From contig OZ024927.1 in assembly GCA_964017235.1 (NCBI GenBank), positions 52,953,293-53,017,292 of the forward strand: 64,000 nucleotides of DNA. The letters are read 5' to 3'. The notes under the pieces were generated by a model, which was not told where the DNA came from, ran no database searches, and was given only the letters and a program-made list of their open reading frames with translations. The position numbers and the translations under genes were made by a program. Of the stretch, positions 1 to 48,805 are shown in pieces. Numbering within the stretch: the first letter of the stretch is position 1; each line of letters begins with the position of its first letter. Source of the stretch: Sabellastarte sp. h YS-2021. Its lineage: Eukaryota > Annelida > Polychaeta > Sabellida > Sabellidae.

Positions 1-3000
1 TGTTTCGGGAAACTCTTAATACCCAAATGTGCTGTTCTTGTCCAAATGTCCCTGGGGTGCTAGTGTATCTGCATTTTATTACCAAGCAGCAAGCTGTTGA
101 AACACCGGTAAAATATTACAAGCCATGTGACACATGTAATTATGTAAATGTTATGAACATAAATCCCTGTGAATAACTTTGAACAGCTTTCAACAACAGG
201 ATATCGTTTCTACTTTCTAGTGTAATCCAATCCTACTTTCAGATCACTTAATTCTAAGGCAAAATAAGCATTGGTTACATTTCATTAAGCCATAAGACGT
301 CCAGGGGTAATAAAACCAGTGAAACTGAGGAAACATGGAAAATACTATAACTGAAAACACCAGCTGAATAAGTTTTAAGTCATGCCCTGAAAGAGTGGTC
401 AAAACCTTCACATCCCATGTATCAGGACTTGAGTTCAGTTCTCATCCTGAAGGGGAAAGCTTAAAAGCCTGATGCCTAATGGTTTTCAGTATAGAATCTT
501 CATCATCTAACATCTACTGCCTTCCTAAATCTCCTCAACTATCCATTGTATATAACTTAAAGTAATATTCAACTCAAACCAATCAATCAAGCAAGCATAT
601 GATGATGTATCTGACAAGAGCCTTGATCTAGACAACCCCAAAGGCTTGTCCAATATTTGCCAGGCGTGTGACTAAAAAATCTGAGAGATGGATAGAGTTT
701 ATACTCCTGACATCATCGTCCTGGTTCCAAAGCAGTGTAGTTGTTTAGACTGCTGCAATGTCTTGCTGTATGATATTACTGGAATAAATATAATACAGTT
801 TCAAATAGATGATATGCACTCCACTGATTTTCATGTGACTACAGGAAACATTGAAAATAAACAGAGATGTTGTTTTGTGGTAATATTTTATACTATAACT
901 ATTTTACTTCAAACTGATTTCATCAAATACCCTCACCCATCTACTTGTGTGTTTTATAGGAAATAATTTTCAGAAGTGAATTTTTAGTTTTATTTTTGTT
1001 ATTTTGATTTCTTAAACGTTTAAGTATCATTTAACACATATTTAACACATTATCAAAACATTATAAAACCTGATGCCATAAGCAAACATTTAAAATCCCA
1101 TATATATCGAAAAAGCATTAAAATAAGACTGCTTTATCCCAATTTGAAAACATCTATCAAAATCATCTATCATGGCAATCAAAATCATCCATCATGGCAA
1201 TTCCTCTTGGAAGATAGCTATTAAAAGATTTTGACTATATGAAAGGCCGATAAAATTTGTAGTAGCATCGACATCAAGTTTGATTCAATTGTTTTCTTAT
1301 GCTTTTAATGTATATCCCGAATTTGGTTCTCGACTAAGATATAGCCTTAACATATTCCCTGTAAGACCCAATGTTATGTTATTTCCCCTCTCTTTTCTTC
1401 TGTCGAGTTAAACACAGCTTTATCAGCCTTGTAACCACCCTCATGCGGATATGCTTTTTGGGGGAAACAACCCTCACACAAATCACAAGAAATTCTAGGA
1501 CTTGAGCAAACCTAGGTTTCACAATTGTTGCATAAATATACATATATTAGCCATATATTTATGTACATAAAGATAATATATAAGATATTTATTGTTAGAT
1601 ATATTTAAGTTTGTTTCTTACAAACATATATACAAAGTAAAGTTGTTCAGGGGTGTACACTGGTCCATACATACTATAGTTTGTGAGGGAGATAGTTTCA
1701 TTTGGGAATAATTTCTCACAAGAGAATGTCTTGTAACTCATCTATTAAATTTTTAACCACCCTTACCATAAAAAGTGGAAACAATCCCCTCCCCACCCAC
1801 CCCCTGTTTCTAAACTCTACCCCATTGCTACAACCAATACACCACCAACACCACTGGGCCTTTTCTCAATGGCCCGATCACTGTGGAGGTTTAAAATAAT
1901 TTGGGAGATGTAGATTACATTAGGTCTGTATTAACAGCCTCACACACGAGCCAGGACTGTCTTCCAAATTGAGAATTATGTGACCAAGAATCAAGTGGAG
2001 ATTGGGGGAAGTGGATGGCAAAGTGATACAAGGGTATTTCCATATGGTCCTCCCTAATTCGATTTGGAGTGGAACGAGCAGATGGGATCTAATGAGAAAA
2101 GCTGGAAGCTGAAGTGAAAGAGAGATAGAAGTTGGCTCAGTATGCTGATGATAGACGTGTAATAGCCAAAAGTTATTTGTGGTTTATGTATAGATAATAG
2201 TAATAACATTTACACAACCATACATTTATGTGGTATTGTATAAAGACAATTGTCAATTAAAAACCGAAAAGCCAGTTCTTTTTGCTGATGATATCAATGT
2301 ATTAGCCAAGGTTTCCTTGTGACCTAAGAAGTGATGTTGTTCAATGTTTTTAAAACTATTTTAAACAGGCTGTCAAATATTGGCCTTAACATTCATGACT
2401 TGTATGAAAACGATTATATCAGTATTTTAAGCTATGTACATGTGTGATAATATTTTATATAGGCTTTTATAATCATATATGTTGGTTCACTGGTCATGTT
2501 AATTTATTTTGGAAAATTTGCTATTCAGTTCATCGTAGTTGAAGAAGACATGTTGAGTTTCAAAAACTTTATTAGATGTAAATAAATATTACTTTAAAGA
2601 TATATTTATATAAAATCAATACTATTCACAATATGCCGACTAATACATATTTTGTCTTATATACAAATACTACACATGAATAAATGTAATCAATTGACAA
2701 TTTACAAAAAAGAAAGATATCTTTGCTTTCAATATTAGTAAACATGAGACAGTTTTTGCCCAACAGCACAGTCAGTCATCGGCTAAAATAAACAACACAT
2801 AATAATATACGGATATGGTTTGTTAAAATTAAGGAAGGTAAATGTACCGAATTTATAGTTATATACTTTATCCATTAGGAAATTAATCATACAGCGACAA
2901 GATCACCCATTATTTGTAACAATGGATGGAAATTGGGTCAAATACTTTTCTCTATTAAAAAAACATTTGACTGATTCAGGTAAGAAAATTGTAATCTATA

Positions 3001-6000
3001 AATAATACATTAACACAGAGTGAATTCTGTAAAAATACTTTGCAGCTTAATATTTGACAATTTATTATAAAGTCTTTGTGTTTCTGTATGAGGCTGTAAG
3101 TTACCGACCTCTAGAATAGAAATGTATATATTTGTCTGTATCCCAGATAAAATGTAGACATACATAACTGGGGGATTTTTGCTGCGATAATTTGACATAC
3201 GTCTTAAATTTGCACAGTGAAGTGAAAATAACATACTTAAACTCTAGCCAACCAGGACTATTCATGCAACAACAGAGCATTGTATGAATACAGTGTATTC
3301 ATGGATAACAAAGTTATCATAGAGTTACGGTAAATTGCTAAGCTAAACAGTCCCAACTAGCACCATACAGACAAAAAAGAACTAATATTCAAAGAAAACA
3401 AATTTTGAACTACATTTTTACAGTCACTGGTACTCACTTCCTGATACTCATTTACAGTCTGCTCAAATCACAAAATATCAAGAGAGAGAACAAAAAAATA
3501 GCCAAAGGAATGTTTAATACCAGACGGCACAAGGATACATGAATTTTTAAACATCAAAACAAACCCGACCTGTATTTGAATATTTTATAAGGCGACCGGG
3601 GAGGGCTGGTTCTAATTCCGTATTATGGGTTCAACCCCCTTTCAACCCCTGTAGTACTACAAGCAATTCAATAATGATCACGATCTCTCCAACCACTGGC
3701 TTAACCGTCCTGGAAAATAGCTTGTTTGGTCTGCAAAAAGGAAGGCAGGTGTATGAATAATTAAACCATATGTTCTGTGTATCCCTTATTATCGCCCTAT
3801 TAAATCTCATAATTTTTACCCCTTGTTTTGGGTGTATGTTTCAGAAGAATATCTTCACATCCATTCACAATTCGAGTGTTACTTTCAGATGTACTAAGTT
3901 TAAATACTTTTTATTTATCTTTGGGTGGTATTTGTAAAACTTGAACCTAAAAGATAATCGCCTTTGATGCCTTTTGTAATCACTACTTTTCAAGGGTTAA
4001 TTGAAATGATTATTTAGAATGGGGGTGTATTATTTTAAAATAACATTCAATAGAACACAATAACATTTAACAATAGAGCCAATATTAGATTGAACGCTAC
4101 AATATTTTTCCGACAGATTTTATAGACAAATTAATACATCAAAAGTTTGGATTTACATTCCTTCCAAAAAACCACGACTACTTGTTTTATTTTTGTGAAC
4201 TAACTTAGATTTAGTGTTAAAAATATATACACCGATGTCTATAACAATTTTCGACACTAAAACAATGTGTTTTCAAAGGTCTGTGACTACTTGGTAATTT
4301 AAGGACAGCCTATCACTAACTGCCATAACCTGGGTTAGAACCCAAAACCAGAGAAGTGAGGACCAAGCAACTAAATGTTAAACTCGTTATTCATTCAGGC
4401 TTTTAGAGCTTACAGTGGTCCTGAATTTGTTCTTCAAATGAAAAACTGTACAGATGAAAACTATAGTTTATTATCAGAAAGTGGTTTGTTTATTATTTTC
4501 AGACATCAATAATAAATCTGTGAATAAATCCCCATTGGTGCGAGGAAGGTCTATAACTTGTCAGAGAGCCATTTGATAATTAATGGCCCTCCACTCTAAT
4601 GAATTTTTTCCAATGCTGTTTTCGACTGAAACATTAAAAACATGTTTAACTTTCAACATATGTGTATGGTATATAAGTTATAGACATTACTTCAAAGATA
4701 TAAATGCATAGAATCTTATTAAGCAATAAACTATCCAATTTTATAGCTGTAGCTTTTCAAACATATTTATGCCTCGTAGTTTCTTGTTATTGTTAGAATA
4801 CTAGTTTAAGACAATTAAAACCATTTATGTGTAAATGTATTCTACACTTATATTAATATTAATCAAATACTTAGTATCTTAGATATCTTAGTGGGTTGTA
4901 TCAGGATTTACACACAGAGGTCAGATTCAATGATGGCTTTCGGATCACGGAAATCAAACCACATATAGATCTGCTATGGGGCTGTAACTCCTGATATGGC
5001 CCTTTATGACCATAATCCAATCTTTTACTTTCAAAAAACTCAAAAATAAAAAACTGCAATTAGAATTTTGTTTTCTGTATGAAAATCGCACCCCCTTTTA
5101 CGTTTATGCAACTCATTTGGCTTGCTAACAATTACAGCTAAAAGTCAACTTTGTTATGATATCAGGTTTTAAAGGTCAGCAGTCAGGTTTTATATCCTAA
5201 ATAAAACAGTCAATTATGTGAGAGGAAAGCCAGCTTATTGTTAATCAGATCAGGGAGTCAGATTAAAAGTGACTTGTAAATGGATACAACTGCTACCCCA
5301 GTCAACTGTTATTTTAACAACAATGGTGTGACAAGGGGGTTTAGAGAAATGGCAATTTCTGCTCATAGTAGTAATATGGTGCTTTTATTGTCCATATGTG
5401 CATGGATTTTGTTAGTTGAAATAAGATTGGGTTGTTGTGGGGAAGAGTTTTATAATGCACGATGCATAGTGGTTGTGTGTGGTCTGATAACTCTCGTCTG
5501 TGCTGGTTCATAAGCAACATAACAATTCTTACATATTCTTACATTTGAAAGTCACAGACTTTTATAACATAATGATAGATCCATTTGGAGAGATTTAGAT
5601 TCTGTTTGTTTCTTTGTTAGCAAGATTACGAAAACACTATGCACTGATTTATATCAAATTTTCAAAATAGATAGGACTTGGTCTAACAAAGAACTGATTT
5701 AATTTTGGAAATGATGCCCAACCAATTCTAGTTCCAGGATTTTTAAAGAAATTCTTCTCATTGCAATCATAATAAATAGTGGAGGTGCTGGGGCCTTATT
5801 GTTTATACAGTGTTAAGTCATGTTTAACTTTCGTTTCTGAAGCATGGAAATGTCAGTTAATATTAATTTGGTTAAAGTTATAAAAGTATGACTTTCAATT
5901 AAAAATTTCAACCGAAGTAAAGTTCCAAGGTTCCTCTTGTTGTAAGTGAATGCATTAAACGTTACTAGATGCTTGCTTTGTGTCACTGCCGGTTCACCAT

Positions 6001-8838: not shown

Positions 8839-9966
8839 CTAGGAATGAGCCACAGGCGAGTGCTGTCCTTGCACTGTAGCAGAGAATTTCATTCTCTTTT
8901 GTTTTTGTCTCTGGTTACAGAACCACACTCTCACTACATTCTTCTTTAAGTCTAATTTCTCTGCAATCTGTGCAATCTTTTCTCCTGATGGTCGTGGTTG
9001 TATGGCAAAGTAGGCTTCTAATGAACGTTTTTCAGGTGCCGCTATGGAGGTGCGTTTTCGCTTTTTCTCCGCATTCGCAAAAGCCTCCGTACTTGCTTTT
9101 GCTTGTCTTGCTGCTGTCTCAGCCTCTTCAAGCCAGGTCTGTAACACTGGTTTTAAGGCAATCATATTGTTATGGCTCAGTGTCAGGGACTCAAAGCGAC
9201 AGATTGTACTCTGACTTAAGGAGCCCACCCCGGGGATTTTCAGCTTACCCAGTGCACACCCCACATCAGCCTGTGTCACCCCTAATTTGATCCGCCTCTG
9301 CTTAAAGTGTTCAGCAAATGCCTCCAATTCTCTGGGGTCAGAGTCCATTTCAGGGTGCTGTTGTTGTTGTTGTTGCTGTTGGGGTGTCAGTTGTTGGGTG
9401 CTGTGCGGGTGACTAGGTGAGATGGAAGCACTAGGAGGTTGTGTGACCCCTGTATGAGTGGCCATAGAACTCAGACTTATATTAGTTTGAGACATATGTT
9501 GAGTATGTTCCAGTTGTTGTTGTGGTGGTGGTGGTTGGGTATGTTGCTGTGTATGTTGCTGCTGTGGTTGTTGGTTGTCAGGTGACACTGATATAGTACT
9601 ACTCAGGTTATTATTAGACACAGTCATTGGGGAATGGGCATAAGAGTTCATTGAGTACATTTGAGCTGTATGTCCATGCGAAGATATCCCAAAACCATTG
9701 TGTTCCGGAGCAATGCCACCCATTGGCATATGTACATTGCTGAGTTGTTCTAACATAGACTCGCCCATGTGTGGTCCAAATCCAGATAAAGACAATTGTC
9801 CCCTTGATGGAGGCATGTTTGGGTTATGTGGGGGCATGTCGGCATGACCGAAAGGTCCTTCAGTGCGCATCATGTGATTGGTGGAGGTAGATTTACTGAT
9901 ATCTGATGCAGCCAGGGCCTCTGCCCTAGCCAACAGGTTGTCTTCCATAGTACCATAGAGATTACC
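8839..9966 (-). CDS. pou4: POU domain class 4 transcription factor, exon 2 (last exon)
   Basis: This exon encodes residues 45-419 of a class IV POU protein (Brn3 / UNC-86 / Acj6 family), a nuclear DNA-binding regulator that in animals specifies sensory and other neurons. It begins after an AG acceptor at 9967-9968 with codons for GNLYGT, then MEDNLLARAEALAASDI, the conserved motif that follows the intron in vertebrate Brn3 genes. A long low-complexity linker rich in Gln, His, Pro and Ser follows, including a run of eight Gln. The POU-specific domain starts at DPRELEAFAEHFKQRRIKLG (about joined residues 254-327), and the homeodomain (about 346-404) contains RVWFCNQRQKQKR with the POU-type Cys-Gln in helix 3. 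The protein ends at HSPVAHS and the frame is intact. An ATG at 9946-9948 is internal to the exon and is unlikely to be the main start, because exon 1 joins in frame. Confidence 0.97.
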   Translation of the reverse strand, partial: GNLYGTMEDNLLARAEALAASDISKSTSTNHMMRTEGPFGHADMPPHNPNMPPSRGQLSLSGFGPHMGESMLEQLSNVHMPMGGIAPEHNGFGISSHGHTAQMYSMNSYAHSPMTVSNNNLSSTISVSPDNQQPQQQHTQQHTQPPPPQQQLEHTQHMSQTNISLSSMATHTGVTQPPSASISPSHPHSTQQLTPQQQQQQQQHPEMDSDPRELEAFAEHFKQRRIKLGVTQADVGCALGKLKIPGVGSLSQSTICRFESLTLSHNNMIALKPVLQTWLEEAETAARQAKASTEAFANAEKKRKRTSIAAPEKRSLEAYFAIQPRPSGEKIAQIAEKLDLKKNVVRVWFCNQRQKQKRMKFSATVQGQHSPVAHS

Positions 9967-15420: not shown

Positions 15421-16414
15421 CGAAGTTAGAAAAGCCAGTTTGGTTGTAGCTCATGACCCCCTCCAGGGTATAAAACATATCAAATATCCTGACATATTCA
15501 TGGCAAGTACCTTATAATTAGCATACATATCAAAGCAGTAATGGGTATTGGAATGAATTTAACATTTTGATGTTGATTACTTTGTCAAATAGATGTCATG
15601 CATCAACAGGCTATTATAGTTAAATGACTACAGACCATGGTTTATATGTTATTAATTTTTTACCGAGTTTCATCGGGAATGAATGTTTCAAATGCAAACC
15701 ACATAAAGAAAAGTGTTGATATGTCAATGGAAGAGTGCAAGGTAAGCATTTTCTGTATGATAATCAATAGGGTGTTTCTGACCATAGTAAATCTGCACAA
15801 TACTTAAGTATTGGATCTTAAATGTTGACAGCAGGAAGTCCATTAGACCTGCAACTTTCATCATGTTTCAAAATGCATTTTACATTTTAGACATTTCTAC
15901 CTTTTTGCTTTTCACCAAAGAGTGAAAACAACATTTCAGCGAAATGTCATATTCCTTGTTTTCAACAACATTAGTTAATTGTACATAAAACCTTTACACT
16001 TTTACAGTTTACAACAGGAACATTTGTCAATGGGGAGTTGTTGGGACTATCACACCGACATTAAGGCCAGTATTGTAACAACACAAGGAGTTACTGTTAT
16101 AACAGGCCGAGCCAACATCCACTCTGACTCAAACAATAGGGCAAGCAGCCACCCATGTTAAATTTGATATTTTCAAAACTCCAGCAATCTTAACAAGATA
16201 CCTTGACATTTCCAACATCCAGTTCTGATTATCACTCCCTTCTTATGGTTATGTAAACAAAACCGAACAAGAGAGACATTGGTGATAATGGTGAAACATC
16301 CACTGGCTTGTAAGTCATTCAATACTGCTAAGAAGAGTAGAATATTCTGTGGAATATTGGGGTTGTTGGTTGCCATCTACCATATAGAATGGATGTTCAT
16401 GATGAAATGTGTTT
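15421..16414. other. No recognised gene
   Basis: No family member is recognised. A frame ending at 15750 with a GTAAGC donor is described under findings. The open frame 15979-16161 follows a good-looking acceptor (TTTTACAG) but shows no known domain. Confidence 0.4.
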
Positions 16415-16472
16415 AAATGTTAAAATTAACAAGTAGGCACCTGGGTTAGGGGTGCAATAAGACGGCATAAAC

Positions 16473-18884
16473 TCACACAAATATGTTGATACCCGTGGGA
16501 TGGAGGGTGGGGAAGGCCCAGATATAGAATAGTTCCTGTCTTTTACGTTTAGTGGAAGAATCTGGGTTGTTTTCCTCCCCCATCCATTGCACAATGCTGA
16601 ACTCCATATTTCTGACACTATGCTTGGGTTGTGTAAAGTGTCTTGAGACAGGGGTAGAATTTAGATCATTGAATTTCTGAACACTTCTGTAGTGTTCATA
16701 CATTCTCTGTCTAATTGGTCTTTTGGTCTCTCCTATATATTGGAGACCACATTCAGTGCAATTAATAATGTATATTACATTACTTAATTCACAAGTGTAT
16801 CTATGCCTTGGTGGTAGGTTAATACATTTGAAGGTCTTTTTAGTGTGGAAACTGGTTATTTGGTCCACTTTGGTCAGTTGAGGACAATATGTACATTTTC
16901 CTAATCTAGTACATACTGTATTGAAAGCTATTTTCTGTTTAGTTTCATCAGTGGGTGGGAATGTGATAGCTGCTCTTGTAAGTAGATCTTTGAGATTTGG
17001 TAGTCTCTTGTACCCTATGAGTGGTTTGTCCTTGAAGATTTGTTTAAGTTCATCAGTATTCTGGATAATGTTCCAGTTGTCTCTGATGAGGGATTTAATG
17101 GGTGGGTTCCTGGGGTTAAATTGAGTCACCATGACCGGTGTGTCTATGGTTTCTCTTGGGTTGTCCTCCAGTAGGTCTGACTGTTTGAACTGGTTGGCCC
17201 TGTTGAAATGCTTCTTGAGGCTACTTGCTGGGTAACCCCTTTTAAGGTAATAGCCAGTCAGTTTAAAGGCATTTGTTTTGAAGTCTTTATCCAGTGTGCA
17301 TATTCTGCGTAACCTTAGATATTGTCCAAAGGGTCCTTTTTCTAGTACAGTGCTAGGGTGGGCTGAACTGTACTCTAAGTACAGGTGGGTGTCTGTAGGT
17401 TTATTGTATAGGGTTGTGATTAGTTCCCTATGTTCATTGAATTTCACTGTTGTGTCTAGGAAATTAATTTCAGAATAGCTAAATTCATGAGTGAATTTAA
17501 TTGATTCATGGAGAGAGTTCAAATACTCAATGAAGTGGTTGAGAGACTCTTCCCCATGTGTCCAGACCATAAAGATATCGTCAATGAACCTTTTCCAGAC
17601 TAGTGGTTTTAGGGGATAACCATCTAAGGCTCTGGTTTCGAACCTATCCATAAATAAATTAGCATAATTTGGTGCTAATGATGTTCCCATGGCTGTCCCT
17701 CCTATCCGTTGATAGTGCTCACCATTGAATTCAAAATTCATATTGTGGAGGACTAAAGTTAACAGGTCTAATATGAACTGGGTGATAGGCGTTTTAGTAG
17801 GGTCACTCCTTAGTTTATTCGCCACAGCTAATATTCCCTCATGGTTAGGGATATTAGTGTATAAACTAGATACATCAAGGGTGCATAATATTGCTCCCTC
17901 TGGGATTTGACCTAGATTCCTAAGTTTCTTGATGAAATCCTGTGTATCCCTAATGTGGGATTTTGTATGAGGAACATATTGTTTTATATGTTCATCAACA
18001 AATTTGCTAATTCTGCTGGTGGGATGATTCACAGAACTGCAAATGGGTCTCCCTGGGACATTTTTCTTATGTATTTTGGGTAACATATAAAATTTTGCTT
18101 CTGTGCAAGATTTTGGTGTTAAATGTTCTAGGTTTTTCTCACTGATTAAACCTTTATTGTACATCTTTATTAGTGTATCTGTAATTTTCTGACCAATACT
18201 TTGGGTGGGATCATGGTCAAGTTTGGTATAGAAATTGGTGTCATTCAGTTGTTGGTAGCCCTCTCTGAGGTAGTCAGTTGTATTCATTACAACAACTGCT
18301 GACCCCTTATCCGCTTTTTTGATGATAATTTTAGGGTTTGATGATAGTTCCTTAAGGCCTGTCCACTGTTCTTTGGTCAGGTTTGGTTGTCCCTTATTTT
18401 TGAGTCTGCTTTTTAGCAAGCCATCTTTAAATGCTCTCTGGAACACTTCCAAGGATTGATGTATCCTTGGTGGTTTCCAGGAGCTTTTGTCTACAAATTT
18501 CTTGTGAATATCTTTATATGGATCTTCACTTTCTTCTAGGTTCATGGCCATAAAATCTACTATTGCCAATTCATCTTCATTAAGATCCTGAAGATGTTTA
18601 TTGTCATAGTAGAAGTGATATTTAAGGCTTAGCCTACGGTGGAATTCTTTGAAGTCCAGCCAAATCTGAGCCTTATTTGGTGGTCCTGGTGTGGGGCAGA
18701 AAGTTAGGCCTTTTTCTAAGGCACCTACTTGTGCTTTACTCAGGGTTTCATCAGATAAGTTAATCACTGTGTGACCAATTAGGCTCTCCATAGTTTTACC
18801 TTTCTGGAGGAACCCAGGAGGGGCTATTTTCGCCTCCTCCTTAACTCTGTTTAAGATCTCCTGATAGTTATAGCCTTCCATCAT
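16473..18884 (-). CDS. Penelope-like reverse transcriptase with GIY-YIG endonuclease
   Basis: The protein copies RNA into DNA and nicks the target in a single retroelement polypeptide. The RT core runs from about residue 265 (PKIHKKNVPGRPICSS), through LDVSSLYTNIPNHEG (about 339, first catalytic Asp), GGTAMGTSLAPNYA (about 397) and KRFIDDIFMVW (about 433, the catalytic DD pair). The C-terminal GIY-YIG nuclease has NVIYIINC (about 704), QYIGET (about 717), arginines and a His in RQRMYEHY, and a late Glu in KRQELFYIW (about 786). Cysteine pairs CTYC and CTEC suggest the zinc-binding module typical of these nucleases. There is no stop or frameshift in about 800 codons. The first ATG is at 18882-18884 (MMEGYNYQ); the frame is open without ATG up to 18959, so an upstream spliced or non-AUG start is possible. 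The start overlaps nothing but lies about 70 bp from the opposite-strand ORF. Confidence 0.93.
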   Translation of the reverse strand: MMEGYNYQEILNRVKEEAKIAPPGFLQKGKTMESLIGHTVINLSDETLSKAQVGALEKGLTFCPTPGPPNKAQIWLDFKEFHRRLSLKYHFYYDNKHLQDLNEDELAIVDFMAMNLEESEDPYKDIHKKFVDKSSWKPPRIHQSLEVFQRAFKDGLLKSRLKNKGQPNLTKEQWTGLKELSSNPKIIIKKADKGSAVVVMNTTDYLREGYQQLNDTNFYTKLDHDPTQSIGQKITDTLIKMYNKGLISEKNLEHLTPKSCTEAKFYMLPKIHKKNVPGRPICSSVNHPTSRISKFVDEHIKQYVPHTKSHIRDTQDFIKKLRNLGQIPEGAILCTLDVSSLYTNIPNHEGILAVANKLRSDPTKTPITQFILDLLTLVLHNMNFEFNGEHYQRIGGTAMGTSLAPNYANLFMDRFETRALDGYPLKPLVWKRFIDDIFMVWTHGEESLNHFIEYLNSLHESIKFTHEFSYSEINFLDTTVKFNEHRELITTLYNKPTDTHLYLEYSSAHPSTVLEKGPFGQYLRLRRICTLDKDFKTNAFKLTGYYLKRGYPASSLKKHFNRANQFKQSDLLEDNPRETIDTPVMVTQFNPRNPPIKSLIRDNWNIIQNTDELKQIFKDKPLIGYKRLPNLKDLLTRAAITFPPTDETKQKIAFNTVCTRLGKCTYCPQLTKVDQITSFHTKKTFKCINLPPRHRYTCELSNVIYIINCTECGLQYIGETKRPIRQRMYEHYRSVQKFNDLNSTPVSRHFTQPKHSVRNMEFSIVQWMGEENNPDSSTKRKRQELFYIWAFPTLHPTGINIFV

Positions 18885-18953
18885 AAGCAATGTGGATAGC
18901 CCAGTAATTCCTGACCTCAGAATTTCTGCTCCTCTGAGATCCCTTAGAAGATT

Positions 18954-19847
18954 ATGTACTTATTTTGTGTGCACAATTCAAAAATGTGGTTCACTTGCAG
19001 TACATGCCATAAGATTTATTCACACAGATCAAATCTCAGGAGGCACATAAAAAGTACTCACCTGAACTTTAGGATCAAATGTAACATGTGTGATCAGGAA
19101 TTCAGGAGAAAAGAATACCTGGATAGACATATGAAACACTACCACACTGATATGGATACTTTCTCCAGAATAAGAGACTGTATTGAAACTGAACCAGGGG
19201 ATTTCACAGAAAGTCAGTCAAGTTGTCCTGAGGATAAGACAACTGGAGGAAAGGACACTCAACCGGATCTGAGTACCTTCTTCACTGATATGTGGCCTGA
19301 TGATGATGAACCAACTCATAGAAGGAACCCTGCACCAAAGACATGCACAGTCACCACAATGACCATGCACAGCAGGACTCAGATATCCATCAGCACACAA
19401 ACTGATATTTGTGACTTACCCCCCATCAAAACAGTCACACATATGGGATGCAACACCACCCCCAAGTTTATGAGGGACAAGACCACTCAACAGGCACCTC
19501 CTCTGGCTTCCAAGGGAACATCACCACACTGCTTGTTCCTTGATGAACCACCCATGAATAACTGGGAAGATGACTCATCACCACCGGAAACCCCTGATAT
19601 GGACATCCCCAGCTATTTCACTGAGGAATTCCAACTGAAAAGGGAGCAACAAGGACTGCCCAGATGCACTGCCTATCAAGGTCCAATGGAGGAAGCAGTC
19701 TCAGAGGACCCCCTCCCCCCATACATGTCAGCTGAAATTCCAATTTGGGGAGTCATCCCACAAAGTGAACCACTAGTGAACTTTGATTTATTGGAATACA
19801 TGAACAATCTGTGTCAGAACATCACACCACCACAGACCAGTAATTGA
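18954..19847 (+). CDS. C2H2 zinc-finger protein divergent from the Penelope RT
   Basis: The 297-residue protein has two adjacent canonical C2H2 fingers near its N terminus: CSTCHKIYSHRSNLRRHIK with its final His, and CNMCDQEFRRKEYLDRHMK with its final His. Both have Cys-x2-Cys-x12-His-x4-His spacing. The remaining ~240 residues are rich in Asp, Glu, Pro, Ser and Thr and look disordered; a more hydrophobic tail (PIWGVIPQSEPLVNFDLLEY) could be an interaction motif. No family for the tail is recognised. It starts about 70 bp from the RT ATG on the other strand, so any promoter would be shared or lie inside coding sequence. I infer it belongs to the mobile unit, perhaps binding element DNA, but a host gene next to an insertion is not excluded. 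Confidence 0.8.
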   Translation: MYLFCVHNSKMWFTCSTCHKIYSHRSNLRRHIKSTHLNFRIKCNMCDQEFRRKEYLDRHMKHYHTDMDTFSRIRDCIETEPGDFTESQSSCPEDKTTGGKDTQPDLSTFFTDMWPDDDEPTHRRNPAPKTCTVTTMTMHSRTQISISTQTDICDLPPIKTVTHMGCNTTPKFMRDKTTQQAPPLASKGTSPHCLFLDEPPMNNWEDDSSPPETPDMDIPSYFTEEFQLKREQQGLPRCTAYQGPMEEAVSEDPLPPYMSAEIPIWGVIPQSEPLVNFDLLEYMNNLCQNITPPQTSN

Positions 19848-19989
19848 AAAGTTGGGTATATATAAAAAGACAGTTTATTTACATTTTATTCACGGATTAT
19901 TTACCGGCAATTTTGTGTAAATAACGGACTGAAGACTACATAATAGTCTTAGACTTTATAAATAGTTAAAATCATTAATTTTAACATTT

Positions 19990-20850
19990 CACTTGATTTT
20001 AATATAAATATAATGCTTATTTTATATATTGCATAAATATTAATCACTACTTAACTTGCATTAAATGGTTATTATTGTGAATCACGGTTATTTTTACTAT
20101 AAAATAATCCTTACTGACATCTATCTTAGAGCTCAAATAAAAAATCTGGGCTTTATTTGTCTCCAATATATATATATATATATATTTTTTAACATTATTT
20201 TATAAAAATCTAATTAAAGGCATCCACAAAATATGTTGGATTGCCACCCATCTTTCCAGTATTTTATTATTATTTTTACCGACAATTATTCCGGTATAAA
20301 TACGTTAATGGAAGTACGGATTATGGGTGAATAAGTATGAATATTCACCACTGACTTCCACTCACTAAATCAATGCTATTGGGTCTTGAGATCTGATTCA
20401 GTGCCACAAGACTGTGTGTGGTATACTCACCCCCTTATCCTCCTAATCTAGGCGGGTATTGCAAGAGGTGACTGAAACAGATCTACTTGGAACCCAAACA
20501 ATACACACTATGAGACAATGCTTCAGAGAGTGCAACTCGACTCTCATTGGGAAAAAGGGTTTTCAGTTGTGTATATTCATGACAATTTTATCTTTGGACA
20601 TGAGTATAATACACCAAACACAAAAATAAAACAAATTATCCTGTTGTATTATTTATTACATATCACCACTGCATTCAAATTAATTTGAAGTTTGAATCCA
20701 TTGTTTCCAGCTACTTACTGGACAGTACATAGGAGATTTATAATAATAATCTCTACAATGAGCACAGTACAATTATTTACTGTTTTTTGGACTTAAATTC
20801 ATAATTAAAGATATTTAGTCATTTATTAATGCAAATTTGCATTTTCAACA
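19990..20850. other. Flank of the Penelope-like unit, no gene
   Basis: A+T-rich sequence with a short (TA)n run at about 20167-20186. The phrase CGGATTAT near GTGAATAA or its complement TTATTCAC recurs at about 19890 and 20320. No coding sequence is recognised. Confidence 0.5.
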
Positions 20851-20860
20851 ATCAGATACA

Positions 20861-20940
20861 AAAAATCTGATCCGATCCGCCGGCCACCGGATCTGATCCC
20901 CAGGATCAGAGAGGATCCCATATCTGTACTTCAGGTGATC
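20861..20940. repeat. GATC-rich imperfect palindrome upstream of the ribozyme
   Basis: CTGATCCGATCCGCCGG is followed by CCACCGGATCTGATCC, an imperfect inverted repeat with several more GATC words up to 20940. The G+C content is clearly above the flanks. It lies directly 5' of the hammerhead motif and may be part of the same element. Confidence 0.5.
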
Positions 20941-20950
20941 CCCCCAACCC

Positions 20951-21028
20951 CTCTCACAGCCTCTGATGAGAACTGACAAAATCAGATCGAAATATTCACA
21001 ACTATTATACTGTGAATATAAGGCAGAG
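20951..21028 (+). ncRNA. Hammerhead self-cleaving ribozyme (type I topology)
   Basis: All conserved core positions are present in order: CTGATGA (20963-20969), GAAA (20989-20992) and the TA before the cleavage site (21019-21020). Helix III is nine perfect pairs (20992-21000 with 21011-21019) closed by a 10-nt loop. Helix II has a G-C pair at the core, then A-T, one mismatch and CTGA/TCAG around a CAAAA loop. Helix I pairs GCCT (20959-20962) with AGGC (21021-21024) and, after a CACA bulge, CTCT with AGAG. Predicted cleavage is between 21020 and 21021 (an AUA triplet, allowed by the NUH rule). Hammerheads are known in Penelope-like elements and retrozymes. The one here is on the strand opposite the nearby RT, so its owner is unclear. 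Confidence 0.85.
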
Positions 21029-21029
21029 A

Positions 21030-21480
21030 TTTAAAGTCTTGACTCATTTTTCACTGACACAAAATCTTCTTGTTTTGTGTTTAAATGTTATTTACAATTA
21101 CTGTAGCAATATAAACTATTATATAGAAGATGTTACCACATCCCTAATATTTAACCCTTATTGTTTTTGAATCACTGAATATTGTAATTATTCCTAAGAC
21201 TTTGAAACATTCCATTAATAATTTTGAAAATCAAAAGTAGAAAACTTGCATTAACAGTGCACACAGTCAGCAAGAATAGTGTCTATTGTCTCCTTGGAAA
21301 TGGGAGTTACAGCATAACTTATGGAAATCCCTAAGTTTCTTTCACAAATGTTTTAATTCTGTGAAGGCAGCTTCTGTTTCACGATGGTAGACCAAATTAA
21401 TATCTATTGGAATGAAGCTCCATATTGTAATTGCATCAGTTTGTTTTGTTTGTCCACACGCACAAGTCTAAAACCATACA
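21030..21480. other. No recognised gene between ribozyme and LINE relic
   Basis: A+T-rich sequence without a recognisable frame. It could include the rest of the ribozyme-bearing element and the degraded 5' part of the LINE relic that follows. Confidence 0.4.
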
Positions 21481-24652: not shown

Positions 24653-25200
24653 GACTGGGGAATTTTGACCAACATGTACTACCAGGGGACACACCATCTG
24701 TTATGTGACTGGGGCATTTTGACCAATATGTACTACCAGGGGACATACCATCTGTAATGTGACTGGGGGATTTTGACCAATATGTACTACCAGGGGACAT
24801 ACCATCTGTAATGTGACTGGGGCATTTTGACCAATATGTACTACCAGGGACATACCATCTGTAATGTGACTGGGGCATTTTGACCAATATGTACTACCAG
24901 GGGGCATACCATCTGTAATGTGACTGGGACATTTTGACCAATATGTACTACCAGGGGACATACCATCTGTAATGTGACTGGGGCATTTTGACCAATGTGT
25001 ACTACCAGGGGACATACCATCTGTTATGTGACTGGGGCATTTTGACCAATATGTACTACCAGGGGACATACCATCTGTTATGTGACTGGGGCATTTTGAC
25101 CAATATGTACTACCAGGGGACATTCCATCTGTTATGTGACTGGGGCATTTTGACCAATATGTACTACCAGGGGACATACCATCTGTAATGTGACTGGGGC
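24653..25200. repeat. 54-bp minisatellite, about 10 copies
   Basis: The unit starts GACTGGGGCATTTTGACC and contains ATGTACTACCAGGGGACAT. Copies begin every 54 bp (24653, 24707, ... 25192), one being 53 bp. Because 54 is a multiple of three, open frames with 18-residue repeats appear on both strands; I do not take them as genes. Copy-to-copy identity is high, so the array is young or kept homogeneous. Confidence 0.95.
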
Positions 25201-25215
25201 ATAACCTCCAATCTG

Positions 25216-43094: not shown

Positions 43095-43220
43095 ATATTA
43101 AGTCGAATATACGACTTAGTATCTTGTATATATGACTTACTATCTTGTATATATGACTTAATAACTCGTATATTCGACTTATTATCTTGTATATACGACT
43201 TACTATCTCGTATATATGAC
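43095..43220 (+). repeat. 21-bp satellite, array 1 (3' flank of the LINE)
   Basis: Six units of a 21-bp repeat (GACTTAGTATCTTGTATATAT and variants with GACTTAATAACTCG). It is in the same orientation as the array at 47855-48235, and the Tx1/L1-like LINE lies exactly between them. Confidence 0.93.
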
Positions 43221-43474
43221 TTTTTTTTTTCTTTTTTTTTTCTTTTTTTTTTTTTGTATTTTTTTTTCTGAAGGATATATACATACAGGCAGATACCTTA
43301 ACAATCACAAGCTATATTTTTCCATTCAATTTTTCCCATAAAGAACACTGCAGACCAAAAGAAACAGTTTTCTAAATGGCCCCAAGAAAAATAAAATAAA
43401 TAAATATCATTAGAACCAGTAAACACAGAAAAAAAACTAAATGTTGTCTTTTGTGAAAACTTTCTTGAAATGTT

Positions 43475-45646
43475 TTAGATGCCTATTCCTGTAAACAAAT
43501 TTTGCCACACAGCCCACTTTTTGGAAAACGCTCTGTTTTGATACTTTATCTCATTTAAACACTTTTGTTCTATAAACATTTTCTTCATTTCTTTTTGTAA
43601 ATAATAAATATTTATTTTAAAGTCATTCCTTGAACACCAATAAAGGTATTTCCTTGTAACCAGGAGGATTAAATTTAAAGGCCAAAAGTGTTTATCATAG
43701 GTTAAATAGCCCAAAATTTTCATGCTATCTGTAATGTTAAAATTTATTGCCAATTTATTTTGGATCCATATTTTAACATTCTCCCATAATACATTTGCCT
43801 TTTCACATTTACTGAACAAGTGATCAATACTCTCTACTGATGTTTTACAAAGACCGCATTCATTATTCTCTGCTATTTTAACCTTCTTTAAATAATCCTT
43901 CGTTCCTAAAATTTTGAATAAAATACGGTACTGAAACCATGAATATTCATTATCTTGGATACAATTAAAACAGATTTTGTAAATCAAAGGCCAAAGATCT
44001 TTACACTCAGTATATTCTTTCTTCAGCATAGAATCCCAAATAAATTCACAAAGTGGTTTTACGTCATCAAGTTGTGCATTGTATAATTCATAATACTTCT
44101 TGCATCCTTGCCGAGACTGAATAATCAAATTCATGTGAGATGGGTACATTGGGCCAAAAGAGGTCGAGCAACTTATATTTTTGCCTGATAAATATTTGAT
44201 AATTTCTAATCTTACTGTAAAGTAATTAAAAATATTCAGGCTACAGTTATATTTCATTTTTAGGTGTTCATAAGTTAACATTTTACCTTCAGCATCAAGA
44301 AGGTCTCGGACATAATATATACCATGATTGAACCAATCTGGAAAATAAATTGGATTTTTAGAGATTTTTGAATTGTACCAAATACAACTTTGTAATAAAT
44401 CTGTATTGTTAGTGATTTCCTGTCTTTTGCATAGATCAGACCATTCAAACAAAATGTTTTGCCAAAAGGGATTTGATATTTTTTTCAGAAATTGAGAGCA
44501 CCATAAATCGCCAAATACAAGTACTTTATCAATATTGTTGTAAAGAGCATATAGTAATCTAAACCATTGCGAATTTTGATGAGTATATAGCTTTCTAACC
44601 CAACTAACTTTTAAAGCTTTTTCAAAATTACAAAGATTTGTCATTTTCAATCCCCCTTGCATATATTTTGAATTTATCGTAACTCTCTTAATTTTGTCAG
44701 GCCCTCCAGACCATATGAATGAGTACAGTAATTTATTCAAATCTTTCAGAAAAGTATCAGATCTTTCTATTGATGTTAGCATGTGTACGCATTTTGGTAT
44801 AAATAGTGTTTTAATCAAGACGATTTTTCCAATTGGTGTGAGATGTCTCACCCTCCACTTTTTCATTTCTTTTTGAATATTGTTAAGGGCTTTAGCATAA
44901 TTTTTTGATGGAATTTCATTTAAATTTGTTGTGAATTCTATACCAAGAAGATTAAAGTCTATGTTTCCCCAATTTAAGTTTTCCTTTATATTTAATTTTT
45001 CTTTTGAAAATCTTTTCCGGCCTATCCAGATAACTTTTGTCTTCTCCCTATTCATCCGAAGGCCTGAGAAGTCACCAAATACTTCTAATACATTCAGGGC
45101 TGTTTGTAGGGAGTGCTGACTACCATCGAGCATCAAGGTTGTGTCGTCTGCAAACTGTGTTAGCTTAAATTCATTTCCCCTAATCTTAATACCGATTATT
45201 TCCGGGTTTATTTTGATCAATTTTGCTAAAATTTCTGCTCCAATTATAAACAAATAAGGAGAGATGGGATCTCCCTGGTGGCAACCACGTTGTATTTGTA
45301 TTTTTTCTGACAAGAAACCACATTGTATTACATACGCTACAATATCTGTATTAAAAATTTTTATCCATTTTATCAAATTGTTATTATAGTCAAAAAAATT
45401 GAGAACTTTGTATAAAAATTTCCAGGAAAGAGAATCAAAAACCTTTTCAAAATCAATGAGTAGAAGTAGACCTGGAATATTCTTTACTTCAGTGGCATGC
45501 ATAATATCATATATAAGTCTAGTGGAATCACTAATAAATCTACCTTTTATAAAACCTGTTTGATTCTCCGAAATTATATTTTCTAAGGTATGTTTCAGTC
45601 TTTCAGCTATTGCACCAGAAGCCAGTTTATATATAACAGATAACAA
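43475..45646 (-). pseudogene. LINE ORF2, RT and C-terminal part (after frameshift)
   Basis: This 723-codon frame covers most of the reverse transcriptase: LLLIDFEKVFDSLSWKFL (first catalytic Asp), IQRGCHQGDPISPYLFIIG, and LTQFADDTTLMLDGS with the catalytic DD intact, then the thumb region. The C terminus has a Cys-Cys-His-Cys knuckle, CGLCKTSVESIDHLFSKC, usual for L1/Tx1-type ORF2. The motif order and RGC-QGDPISPYLF point to the L1/Tx1 group. The frame has no internal stop. It is separated from the endonuclease frame by one indel at about 45664-45670. Confidence 0.9.
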
Positions 45647-47321
45647 AGAGATAGGGCGCCAATTTTTTTATGAAATTACGATCCTTATCTGGTTTTGGCA
45701 GACAAGTAATGATACACTGTCGTAATGATGTCGATAACAGTCCTTTTGTGAAACAGTAGTTTAATGAATTCGCAATAAAAAATTTTAGTTTCCCCCAAAA
45801 TACTTTCAGAAATTCCGCTGTTATGCCATCGATACCAGGGGTTTTGTTGTGTTTCATTTTTTTAAGAATGAATCCTAATTCTTTTACAGTTAAAAATTTT
45901 CCTAAATCCTCATTTGCTGTAGTTTTATTATTGTTTTTCAAGCCCAGTTTCTCAAAATCAAAGTCCATCAATCTGTCATCCCTACTTTGAAATAAATTGG
46001 CGTAAAATTTTCTTACATGATGGAGTATGTCCTTTTGGTCAGTAACAATTGACCTATCATTTAAATGGACCTTCTTAATTGTCTTTTCAATAAAATTTTT
46101 GTTTTCAAGGTTACAGAAAAACTTGCTCGGTTTTTCACCTTCCTGTAACCACTGTTGTCGAGACCTCACCGAATTTCCCTTTAATTTGACTTTTCTTAAA
46201 GCCATCAGTTCCTGTCGTTTGTCATGAAGAAGTTCTGTATTCGAGGATTGCAGTTGTTCACTTGCCTCTAAAGTTTCAATATCTTTAATTAAGGTGTTTT
46301 CAAGATGGACACGTTTTTTCTTTTCAAAAGTAGCAAACTTAATAGTCTCTCCACGGATTCTGAGGAGAAGCATTTCTAAAAATACATCATTGTCAATTGT
46401 GAATTGAATGTCAGAGTAGTTTTCATTTAAAAATTCCACACTGTACAGTGGAATAGCATACTTTTGCTTTTCTTCAACAATAATTTTATTGATAAGATTC
46501 AAATATTTAGTATTTTCCAGTAGACTGTTATTAAATTTCCAAACTCCTTTGCCATGATTAAATTTATTTAACAAAATTTCCAATTCAGTTTTTGAATGAT
46601 CAGATCTGTAACTAAGCCTTATTTCACACTTATTTATAATATCCAGAATGGTAGAAGATGCTATAAACATGTCTAGTCTGGCTTGTTTAATTGGATTTTT
46701 CCGTCTCCAAGTATAACGTTTGGTATTGGGATGCAAATTTCTGTATATATCACACAAGTCATGGTCCTCTAATATTTTCAAAACTGTGTCTCTTGCCTTT
46801 GGGTTATTCAAAAGTTTATAATTATTTGTGTCTAGCTCAGGATTTAAAACCAAATTAAAATCTCCACATATGATATTGTAGTCTGCATTTTCCTCTTGTA
46901 ACATATTTTCAATTTCATGAAAAAACCCTGGACTGTCTTTGTTAGGTCCATATAGTGTGATGAGATTAATGATGATAGAACTTAACTTTAACACAATTTT
47001 TAAAAAGTTGCCATTTTTGTCGCTTTTTAGAGACAATACCTTATGCTCAAAATTATTATTTAAAAAAATAGCTACCCCGCGAGAATTGGTTTTACTGCCA
47101 CTCAGATAAATTTCACCATCCCATAGTTTTTTCAGTTCTGGAATATCATTTTCTATTAAATGGGTATCTTGTAAACAAAGAATATTAACTTTGTTTTCTT
47201 TAAAATATGTTAAGACATCAATTTTCTTTTCTTGGTTCCTTAAGCCTTGACAGTTTGCAGACAACACTTTGATGCTATTTTGTACATGCATTTTGGATTT
47301 TAGTGAATGCACTCCCCCCAT
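45627..47321 (-). pseudogene. LINE ORF2, endonuclease and start of RT (before frameshift)
   Basis: The 564-codon frame opens with MGGVHSLKSK and an APE-type endonuclease: IKVLSANCQGLRN, ILCLQDTHL, LITLYGPNKDSP, IICGDFNLVLNP and LSYRSDHSKTELEI. A coiled, charged linker follows, then NKTPGIDGITAEFLKVFW at the entry of the RT. It runs out of frame at PKPDKDRNF...; the plus strand has seven T at 45664-45670 where six would keep the frame, so one extra base separates the two halves. All endonuclease landmark residues are present. Confidence 0.9.
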
Positions 47322-47854
47322 TTGTCACAGGAACAGTAAAAACAAACTTGCTAAGATTAAATTGTTGAGCAATTTTAAAGCTACAAAAAACACTTCTCTT
47401 CACTTTATGGCACAAACATTTCTGAAAAAGTAATTCATCCATAAATATTTTTACACAAAAGATGACATAGGTATATGGATAGGTTTTAAAATTAATTCTC
47501 CAATATAGCCTGTCTACAAATATTTTTAGATCAATAGCATGTGTTCGGTTGTTAAGGTTTATTTGCTGCCAAACCATGGATGTGTGAAATAAGTGGCACT
47601 TAACTAGAGCAACATGTCTTAATGTCATTTACTTATCCTATATCTCAAGAAAACCTCATTTCAGCATTTCAATTGAATTTTACCATAGTACTTCTAAACC
47701 TACTTATCAGATGTATCATTGTGGTAACATTTTGGAAAAAAGCTTCTATTCTTTGGAATCTAGATGCTAGAAACCTAGAAATTTAGTTTCTTTACCAGGT
47801 AATACAAAACAAACATTTGTAATATAAAAATAAGGTCTAAAATAAACCAAAATA

Positions 47855-48235
47855 TATATATGACTTAGTATCTTGTATATACGACTTAGTATCTCATATA
47901 TACAACTTAATAACTTGTATATATGACTTTTTTAGTATCTCGTATATACGACCTAATAACTTGTATATACGACTTAGTATCTCATATATACGACATAATA
48001 ACTTGTATATACGACTTAGTATCTTGTATGTACAACTTACTATATCATATATACGACTTAATAACTTGTATATATGACTTAATAACTTGTATATACGACT
48101 TAGTATCTCGTATATACGACTTAATAACTTGTATATACAACCTAGTATATCATATATATGACTTAATAACTCGTATATATGACTGAGTATCTAATATATA
48201 CCACTTAGTATCTCCTATATACCACTTAGTTTTAA
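47855..48235 (+). repeat. 21-bp satellite, array 2
   Basis: About 18 units of 21 bp. Two variants, GACTTAGTATCTCGTATATA and GACTTAATAACTTGTATATA, tend to alternate, giving a 42-bp higher-order unit. The unit is a multiple of three, which produces open frames with a seven-residue repeat (IYDLVSR-like); not a gene. Confidence 0.95.
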
Positions 48236-48465
48236 CATTTCCATTGAGTTATATGAATTACTAAATCTTATTCACAGAACATACCATTCATGTAAAACAA
48301 GGCATTTAAATTCATGGGCTATTCCCTTTCTTCTATTTTATAACAACTGGTATATAAAAGACAGTATGTCGACGATTTGACTGAATAGGTGGAATGTACA
48401 AGTGCCTTAGTCATATGTTTGACAGGCTTTGTTGAATATATGAATTATCAAGTGAAATATTCAAG

Positions 48466-48805
48466 TTACTAAGTCATAAATATGAGACACTAAGTCATAT
48501 ATAGAAGTTAGTAGGTCGAATATATCAGTTATAAAGTGGTATATATGAGATATTAAGTCGAATATACAAGATACTAAGTCATATATACAAGATAGTAAGT
48601 CGTATATACGAGATACTAAGTCATATATATTAGTTAATAAGTTGTATATACAAGATACTAAGTTGTATATACAAGTTATTAAGTCGTATATATGAAATAC
48701 TAAGTTGTATATACAAGTTATTAAGTCGTATATACGAGATACCAAGTCATATATACAAGTTATTAAGTCGTATATACGAGATAGTAAGTCGTATATACAA
48801 GCATT
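48466..48805 (-). repeat. 21-bp satellite, array 3, inverted
   Basis: The same 21-bp unit in reverse orientation (plus strand reads AAGTCGTATATACGAGATAC), about 16 units. With array 2 it forms a large inverted repeat with a spacer of about 230 bp (48236-48465) that has no recognised feature. Confidence 0.95.

Follow-up and report, generated by a model that had tools for sequence, protein, structure and literature searches.

A recent insertion of a three-gene Penelope-like retrotransposon with two distinct fixed ends in the genome of Sabellastarte sp.

We describe an insertion of a Penelope-like element (PLE) in a 64,000-nucleotide stretch of the genome of the sabellid annelid Sabellastarte sp. 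h YS-2021 (contig OZ024927.1, positions 52,953,293 to 53,017,292; hereafter the window). An earlier note on this DNA had reported an intact frame of about 800 codons encoding a reverse transcriptase (RT) with a GIY-YIG endonuclease (EN), arranged head to head with an intact 297-codon two-finger frame and with about 70 bp between the ATGs. This description holds: the frames, of 803 and 297 residues, are both open, lie on opposite strands and have 69 bp between their start codons. The limits given for the feature (16415-19989) had to be redrawn, as the insertion spans 16422-21076 and consists of two inverted arms whose outer ends are bordered by a perfect 13-bp duplication; the plus strand of the window contains no third copy of this 13-mer. 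A short inverted repeat near 16415/19970, picked out by eye, was ruled out as the pair of element ends, the true right end lying 1.1 kb beyond the repeat at 19970. Arms were assigned with a blastn search of the window using a tandem unit of the element taken from an array on the same chromosome (C1), and the resulting features are as follows.

16409..16421, unstranded: target-site duplication, left copy, 13 bp (identical 13-mer at 21077)
16422..21076, unstranded: complete insertion, made up of two arms of a single Penelope-like element in inverted orientation (unit-to-window blastn and flanking duplication)
16422..18950, minus strand: B arm, running from unit 4630 back to 2102 (99.5% identity to the unit over 2529 bp, blastn)
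16424..16457, minus strand: site B sequence, a hairpin loop in intact units (pattern match; hairpin fold)
16473..18884, minus strand: RT/endonuclease open reading frame (ORF), 803 aa, intact (open frame, Pfam, group II RT similarity)
16572..16778, minus strand: GIY-YIG endonuclease domain, aa 703-771 (Pfam PF01541, E 1.2e-5)
18951..18951, unstranded: inversion junction, unit 2102 against unit 4873 (blastn)
18952..21076, plus strand: A arm, running from unit 4873 through 1229 (identity to the unit 99.6% over 894 bp, then 98.5% over 1233 bp, blastn)
18954..19847, plus strand: zinc-finger ORF, 297 aa, with the conserved start probably at 18984, giving 287 aa (open frame, Pfam zf-C2H2 E 5.6e-9, alignment)
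18990..19145, plus strand: two C2H2 fingers, aa 13-36 and about 41-64 (Pfam PF00096 / PF13894)
20951..21033, plus strand: hammerhead-ribozyme-like motif (core present; Rfam score in locus L010 under the cut-off)
21047..21076, plus strand: site A sequence, terminal in the window and a hairpin loop in tandem units (pattern match; fold)
21077..21089, unstranded: target-site duplication, right copy, 13 bp (identical 13-mer)

The B arm thus carries the RT gene with 66 nt of its leader and a 51-nt 3′ stub ending at site B, and the A arm carries the zinc-finger gene, its 3′ region and the hammerhead-like motif, terminating at site A. At the junction between the arms the finger gene retains just 2 nt of leader.

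We interpret the locus as a single recent insertion of a Penelope-like retrotransposon whose 5765-nt unit carries three genes, all in sense orientation. The window RT protein shows similarity to group II RTs (E 4.4e-5) and a relative in locus L026 matches RVT_1 (E 2.2e-7). An RT domain, a C-terminal GIY-YIG domain and inverted terminal parts with short target duplications are all present, as in canonical endonuclease-bearing (EN+) PLEs. Canonical PLEs have a single ORF, whereas families 1 and 3 of this element have three per unit, and it should therefore be considered a variant rather than a canonical member. Pfam found the GIY-YIG domain but no RT-domain match in the window RT protein, PDB sequence searches with the RT gave no match, and its single-sequence AlphaFold model (predicted local distance difference test score, pLDDT, 33.7) was unusable. 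Several motifs in the RT also appear PLE-like.

The earlier note considered a host gene next to an insertion to be the main alternative to an element-borne zinc finger. C2H2 fingers are common in host genes, and the PDB matches of the finger protein are indeed host and designed zinc-finger proteins. Nevertheless, a single 13-bp duplication encloses the RT and finger genes, which implies that both arrived in one event and refutes, at the window locus, a single-copy host gene lying outside the insertion. Searches of the genome assembly (one genome, 1.786 Gb) returned at least 134 matches to the finger protein (132 of 1876 candidates scored), many of them 98-100% identical and some of them located in 5765-bp tandem units together with the RT; among the matches listed, 86 were counted by eye as near full length and stop-free. 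For the RT, at least 56 scored matches were obtained from 9644 candidates. The mitochondrial COX1 of this genome gives an open frame with translation table 5 or 9 but not with table 2, in keeping with an invertebrate host. The finger gene, which is intact and multi-copy, occurs together with the RT at many loci, and we assign practically no probability to its being a host gene.

The native arrangement of the genes is provided by the tandem array at C1:183.98-184.01 Mb, in which the 5765-bp unit encodes three genes on one strand, in unit coordinates:

1235: site A
1247-2017: ORF1, 256 aa, isoelectric point (pI) about 10
2168-4579: RT/EN
4630: site B, just after the RT gene
244 nt: gap between site B and the finger gene
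4875 to TGA at 1-3 of the next unit: zinc finger
1.2 kb: 3′ region with the hammerhead-like motif shortly before site A

The finger gene hence begins 295 nt past the end of the RT gene, in sense orientation. This offset is identical in 12/12 family-1 same-strand pairs among 20 fetched loci, and the family-2 pairs (L022, L023 and L027) share a common offset 13 nt longer than that of family 1, while the RT-finger distance in the family-3 copy L026 is about 420 nt. Family 2, whose finger shares 78-84% amino acid identity with that of the window over the frame as listed, retains the order RT-finger; of its ORF1, only the first part is represented, with 93-95% DNA identity over the A junction, in the best 40 matches listed in a search with 300 bases spanning site A, which addresses internal junctions only. 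Family 3 is more distant from the window copy (72% amino acid identity for the RT, 50% for ORF1 and about 40% for the finger), and L026 keeps the order ORF1-RT-finger. A second family-3 copy, the partial tandem at L028:1-6597, has the same gene order, with ORF1 and finger open and a damaged RT gene that lacks its 3′ end and site B.

These arrangements bear directly on the earlier suggestion of an opposite-strand gene sharing a promoter with the RT. Both frames in the window are intact and 69 bp apart, and further head-to-head cases occur at C2:172734429/172735818 and in L025 (partial RT). Across the fetched loci, however, the proposed pairing at constant spacing was found for same-strand pairs, whereas head-to-head spacing varies from one locus to another, as would follow from a layout that is the chance joining point of two truncated arms. 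The 69 bp in the window are the 66-nt RT leader and the 2-nt finger leader joined at the unit 2102/4873 breakpoint. The head-to-head layout is, to judge from these coordinates, the inversion junction between two 5′-truncated arms, and ORF1 is evidently missing from the B arm of the window through 5′ truncation. We consequently reject the opposite-strand architecture with a shared promoter and regard a true divergent pair as extremely improbable.

We searched the genome with short patterns for site A, which precedes ORF1, and for site B, which closely follows the RT gene, and clustered the matches, merging sites up to 9 kb apart. Subfamily 1 yielded 81 A and 94 B matches, with 37 clusters in which both outermost sites point outward; 36 of these are A/B and none is B/B. 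Independent patterns for subfamily 2 yielded 37 A and 56 B matches, and all of its 19 two-armed clusters are A/B. Altogether, 55 of 56 two-armed clusters in the two subfamilies have one A and one B end, with arms in opposite orientation, and 0 are B/B; backward-pattern controls of the A and B searches returned 0 matches in both subfamilies. Free choice of ends would make about half of the clusters A/A or B/B, and the chance of at least 36 A/B clusters among 37 at a rate of one half is 2.8e-10. Excluded from the counts in subfamily 1 are 21 clusters that contain B sites only and have 2 mismatches, 10 isolated sites and 10 clusters whose outermost sites do not both face outward; in subfamily 2 they are 18 B-only clusters, 2 isolated sites and 4 clusters with outermost sites not both outward. 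One excluded cluster, C3:46422983, is in fact two-armed, its A site being damaged or missed by the pattern.

Even an insert of about 134 bp, with arms of about 35 and 95 nt, has A/B ends and a 13-bp duplication, and the family-3 copy L025 likewise ends in A and B (by eye). Target duplications of about 12-14 bp were seen by eye in 9 of 10 two-armed loci examined, including the window and the C1 array, as well as in L040 and L041. The longest cluster encountered, C5:103849524-103884668, extends over 35 kb with 13 A and B sites and intact A/B ends.

Our best reading of these data is two-sided target-primed reverse transcription, with one start per strand at unlike sites. In this process, the enzyme would make staggered cuts, about 13 nt apart, in the two strands of the target; a first reverse transcriptase would initiate at hairpin A and copy back through the finger gene, a second would initiate at hairpin B and copy back through the RT gene, and the two 5′-truncated products would be joined into an inverted two-armed insertion with one gene per arm. 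The window copy would be such a case, with both arms ending just upstream of start codons. The RNA template would be multimeric or circular. Comparisons of units belonging to the same insertion, over 0.6-5.8 kb each, show 0-3 base differences, whereas the C1 insertion differs from the C4 insertion by 22 bases in 4517 bp; this near-identity of units suggests that each of these two insertions was copied from a homogeneous multimer or circle. Arms can exceed one unit, the C1 array extending within one duplication for about 2.4 units on the A side and 1.7 on the B side, and tandem or partial-tandem units are found both in this array and in the family-3 copy L028. A hammerhead would permit a circular template, and a hammerhead-like core is present in families 1-3, with stem II pairing at 6/7 positions in family 1, 5-6/7 in family 2 and 6-7/7 in family 3; the base pairs that form this stem in family 1 differ from those in family 3. 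The Rfam search of the window at gathering scores gave no match, and two weak matches in the B region were both under the cut-off. In family 1, sites A and B lie in hairpin loops containing CTTGTTWWTTTT, and the fixed genomic ends A and B are internal to the tandem unit, a position compatible with internal initiation.

Other routes to inverted arms must be considered. Long interspersed nuclear element (LINE) twin priming produces inverted 5′-truncated arms with a target duplication, and the position of its second start varies. Applied to this element, A would be the 3′ end of the RNA and B an internal annealing site, a reading that accommodates the inverted arms, the target duplications and the existence of one-armed copies ending at A (L020 and L023). 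Yet both starts are fixed here, each recurring within a few bases, and A arms can run past site B (L014) just as B arms can run past site A (L030, L033 and L038), so that A and B must both be internal on a longer template. In addition, five subfamily-1 clusters were detected with a B end only, one of which proved two-armed. We hence consider twin priming unlikely. Self-priming, in which a single complementary DNA folds back on itself, was suggested for rotifer Penelope (PMC3846280), and would fit the near-perfect palindrome of 724 bp (98.6%) that occupies an inverted junction of L026. Against fold-back stand the initiation of the arms at two different fixed sites, their unrelated break positions (3393 versus 2916 in L014, 4904 versus 2972 in L024) and the fact that either arm may carry sequence absent from the other, which leave it with only a small probability. 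The palindrome itself (L026:9183-9901) contains two inverted site-A/hammerhead stretches and is worth a look as an inversion junction or an A-to-A case; MIR5048 matches in L026 lie on a palindrome, score under the cut-off and were dismissed.

Several observations weigh against two-sided priming at unlike sites and against the wider account. One of the 56 two-armed clusters, C18:73043206, reads A/A; its RT copy runs past the right-hand A and stops at unit 4531 with the B end missing, and it is thus probably a damaged A/B insertion. The duplication is weak by eye in L024, one of the 10 two-armed loci. The one-armed copies L020 and L023 have duplications of about 12 bp (by eye), and two starts are therefore not obligatory for insertion. 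Folding of the family-1 hairpins is modest (z -2.35 and -1.88), two family-3 A regions fold no better than shuffled sequences (z -0.23 and 0.14), and the RAGATH-1-hammerhead match in L010 scores 18.4 bits against an Rfam cut-off of 56.3 (E 0.86). Six intact RT loci (L030, L032, L033, L034, L037 and L038), out of 10 RT loci listed, have no finger match in their 1.5-kb flanks, nor do they appear among the finger matches listed. The earlier note had proposed consistent absence of the finger from RT copies as grounds for abandoning an element-borne gene; absence was found at these six loci and pairing at many others, so the pair is not delivered by every insertion. In three of the six (L030, L033 and L038), over 500 nt of the 3′ region of the finger gene persist upstream, the extension of L038 (L044) has a finger remnant of 102-108 nt at its inversion junction, and L032, L034 and L037 have 299, 56 and 222 nt of this region on the RT arm. 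Finally, L024 lacks one zinc ligand of finger 1, with tyrosine in place of histidine, and the function proposed for the finger protein is read from sequence features.

Those features point to a conserved, putatively DNA-binding protein. The conserved frame probably begins at its second ATG (18984): the residues MW are invariant there in six aligned sequences, family-3 frames begin at this position, and neither L022 nor L023 has another ATG in the 10 codons preceding the equivalent start. The comparison of the ratio of nonsynonymous to synonymous substitution rates (dN/dS) advocated by the earlier note gave, for family 1 against family 2, values of 0.17-0.31 in three pairs of finger genes and of about 0.08 in two pairs of RT genes, synonymous sites being saturated in comparisons with family 3. 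Between the window and family 3, the finger part (first 54 residues) is 50-56% identical and the remainder 37-40%. Residues H14, N17, R20, R42, E44, Y45 and R48 are invariant in all six aligned sequences, and the positions expected to contact bases are largely invariant across them. The remainder of the protein is acidic (pI 4.3-4.5), with a TQT-like site in 6/6 proteins (SQT in L028) and a conserved hydrophobic F.L segment at the C-terminal end, which may resemble LC8-binding and activation motifs, respectively. No zinc-finger relatives were found in viral contigs.

The gap upstream of the finger gene is rich in cyclic AMP response element (CRE) motifs. One copy from each of the three families contains 4-5 TGACG/CGTCA motifs, against 0.2-0.3 expected, and one TGACGTCA per gap; elsewhere in the family-1 unit, the remaining two non-coding stretches contain no TGACG/CGTCA motif. 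This CRE-rich gap between site B and the finger gene appears promoter-like. Most likely, although we propose this with less confidence, the finger is an element-encoded, transcription-factor-like protein that would regulate the gap by binding element DNA. A role in integration, through target choice or A-B bridging, would draw on the invariant finger contact residues and on the strict A/B heterotypy, which requires some factor that tells A from B; no target consensus is evident by eye among the target duplications displayed, and we rank this role second to transcriptional self-regulation, as somewhat improbable.

Taken as a whole, an account comprising one recent three-gene PLE insertion, priming from the two starts A and B, and a finger regulator of the element's own seems to us probable. 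A more specific proposal, to which we give slightly less than even weight, is that integration brings two unlike RNA start sites together in one complex, each serving one strand of the target (heterotypic two-sided target-primed reverse transcription), so that the arms would deliver different genes; the finger, encoded between the sites, would distinguish or bridge them or drive the element's own promoter.

The surroundings of the insertion contain other features. About 6.5 kb away, a 375-aa frame at 8839-9966 (minus strand) ends in what we take to be a POU-specific domain and a homeodomain, apparently an exon of a POU class 4 (Brn-3-like) host gene. A presumed LINE occupies 43475-47324 (minus strand), with a 565-aa frame we consider endonuclease-like and a 730-aa frame we consider RT-like; they overlap in different reading frames, so the element is probably frameshifted. 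Related arrays of 21-bp units lie near both of its ends, the first two (43099-43222 and 47854-48230) in one orientation and the third (48450-48801) reversed. Ten 54-bp tandem copies (96% matching) at 24653-25202 fall mostly inside a 209-codon open frame. Elsewhere in the genome, two frames beside the family-3 insertion in L025 (L025:288-2556) are presumably a DIRS-type RT and a tyrosine recombinase.

Penelope-like elements are already known, but the three-ORF, two-start variant looks new as far as our literature searches go: among the papers listed by searches of open-access full text, none was a PLE paper on a zinc-finger ORF. The element resembles PAc of Anolis carolinensis (Poseidon/Penelope) in its RT with C-terminal GIY-YIG and its tandem units, and would share with it a hammerhead near the coding start, internal starts at stem-loops, ends matching starts and cutting of both strands (PMC11167929). 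The anole protein cuts both strands and initiates inside the RNA at two adjacent sites, whose positions agree with those of the genomic ends and of the "tail" (PMC11167929). PAc, as far as the available text of that paper describes it, has one ORF and two adjacent starts, whereas the present element has three ORFs, and its starts are separated by 3.4 kb in one direction around the unit and by 2.4 kb in the other, each interval holding at least one gene. The Penelope families of the rotifer Adineta vaga likewise have inverted terminal repeats, short target duplications and unequal ends, a 31-bp tail being optionally present on one repeat, and their authors favour self-priming; they have a single ORF, their ends differ by about 31 bp rather than by kilobases, and the available text reports no zinc-finger gene (PMC3846280). 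Athena and Terminons have more than one ORF, as does the present element, and carry hammerheads, but they lack the endonuclease and are telomere-attached (PMC6431247), in contrast to the GIY-YIG domain, internal insertion and target duplication found here.

In ordinary PLEs, the two possible ends are about 30-40 bases apart (PMC3846280, PMC11167929), which makes the start used by each arm hard to read, and the available text of both papers leaves open how inverted and tandem PLE insertions are made. With starts kilobases apart, each two-armed copy records the start used by each arm, and the mechanism thereby becomes countable in genomes and testable with two RNA hairpins. Should heterotypic pairing prove true, the unequal "tail" ends of ordinary Penelope elements would be a compact form of the same rule. 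A 2019 review describes PLEs with endonuclease as having one ORF and those without it as having two (PMC6431247, available text); to a group so described, the Sabellastarte element brings a sense-strand, transcription-factor-like gene.

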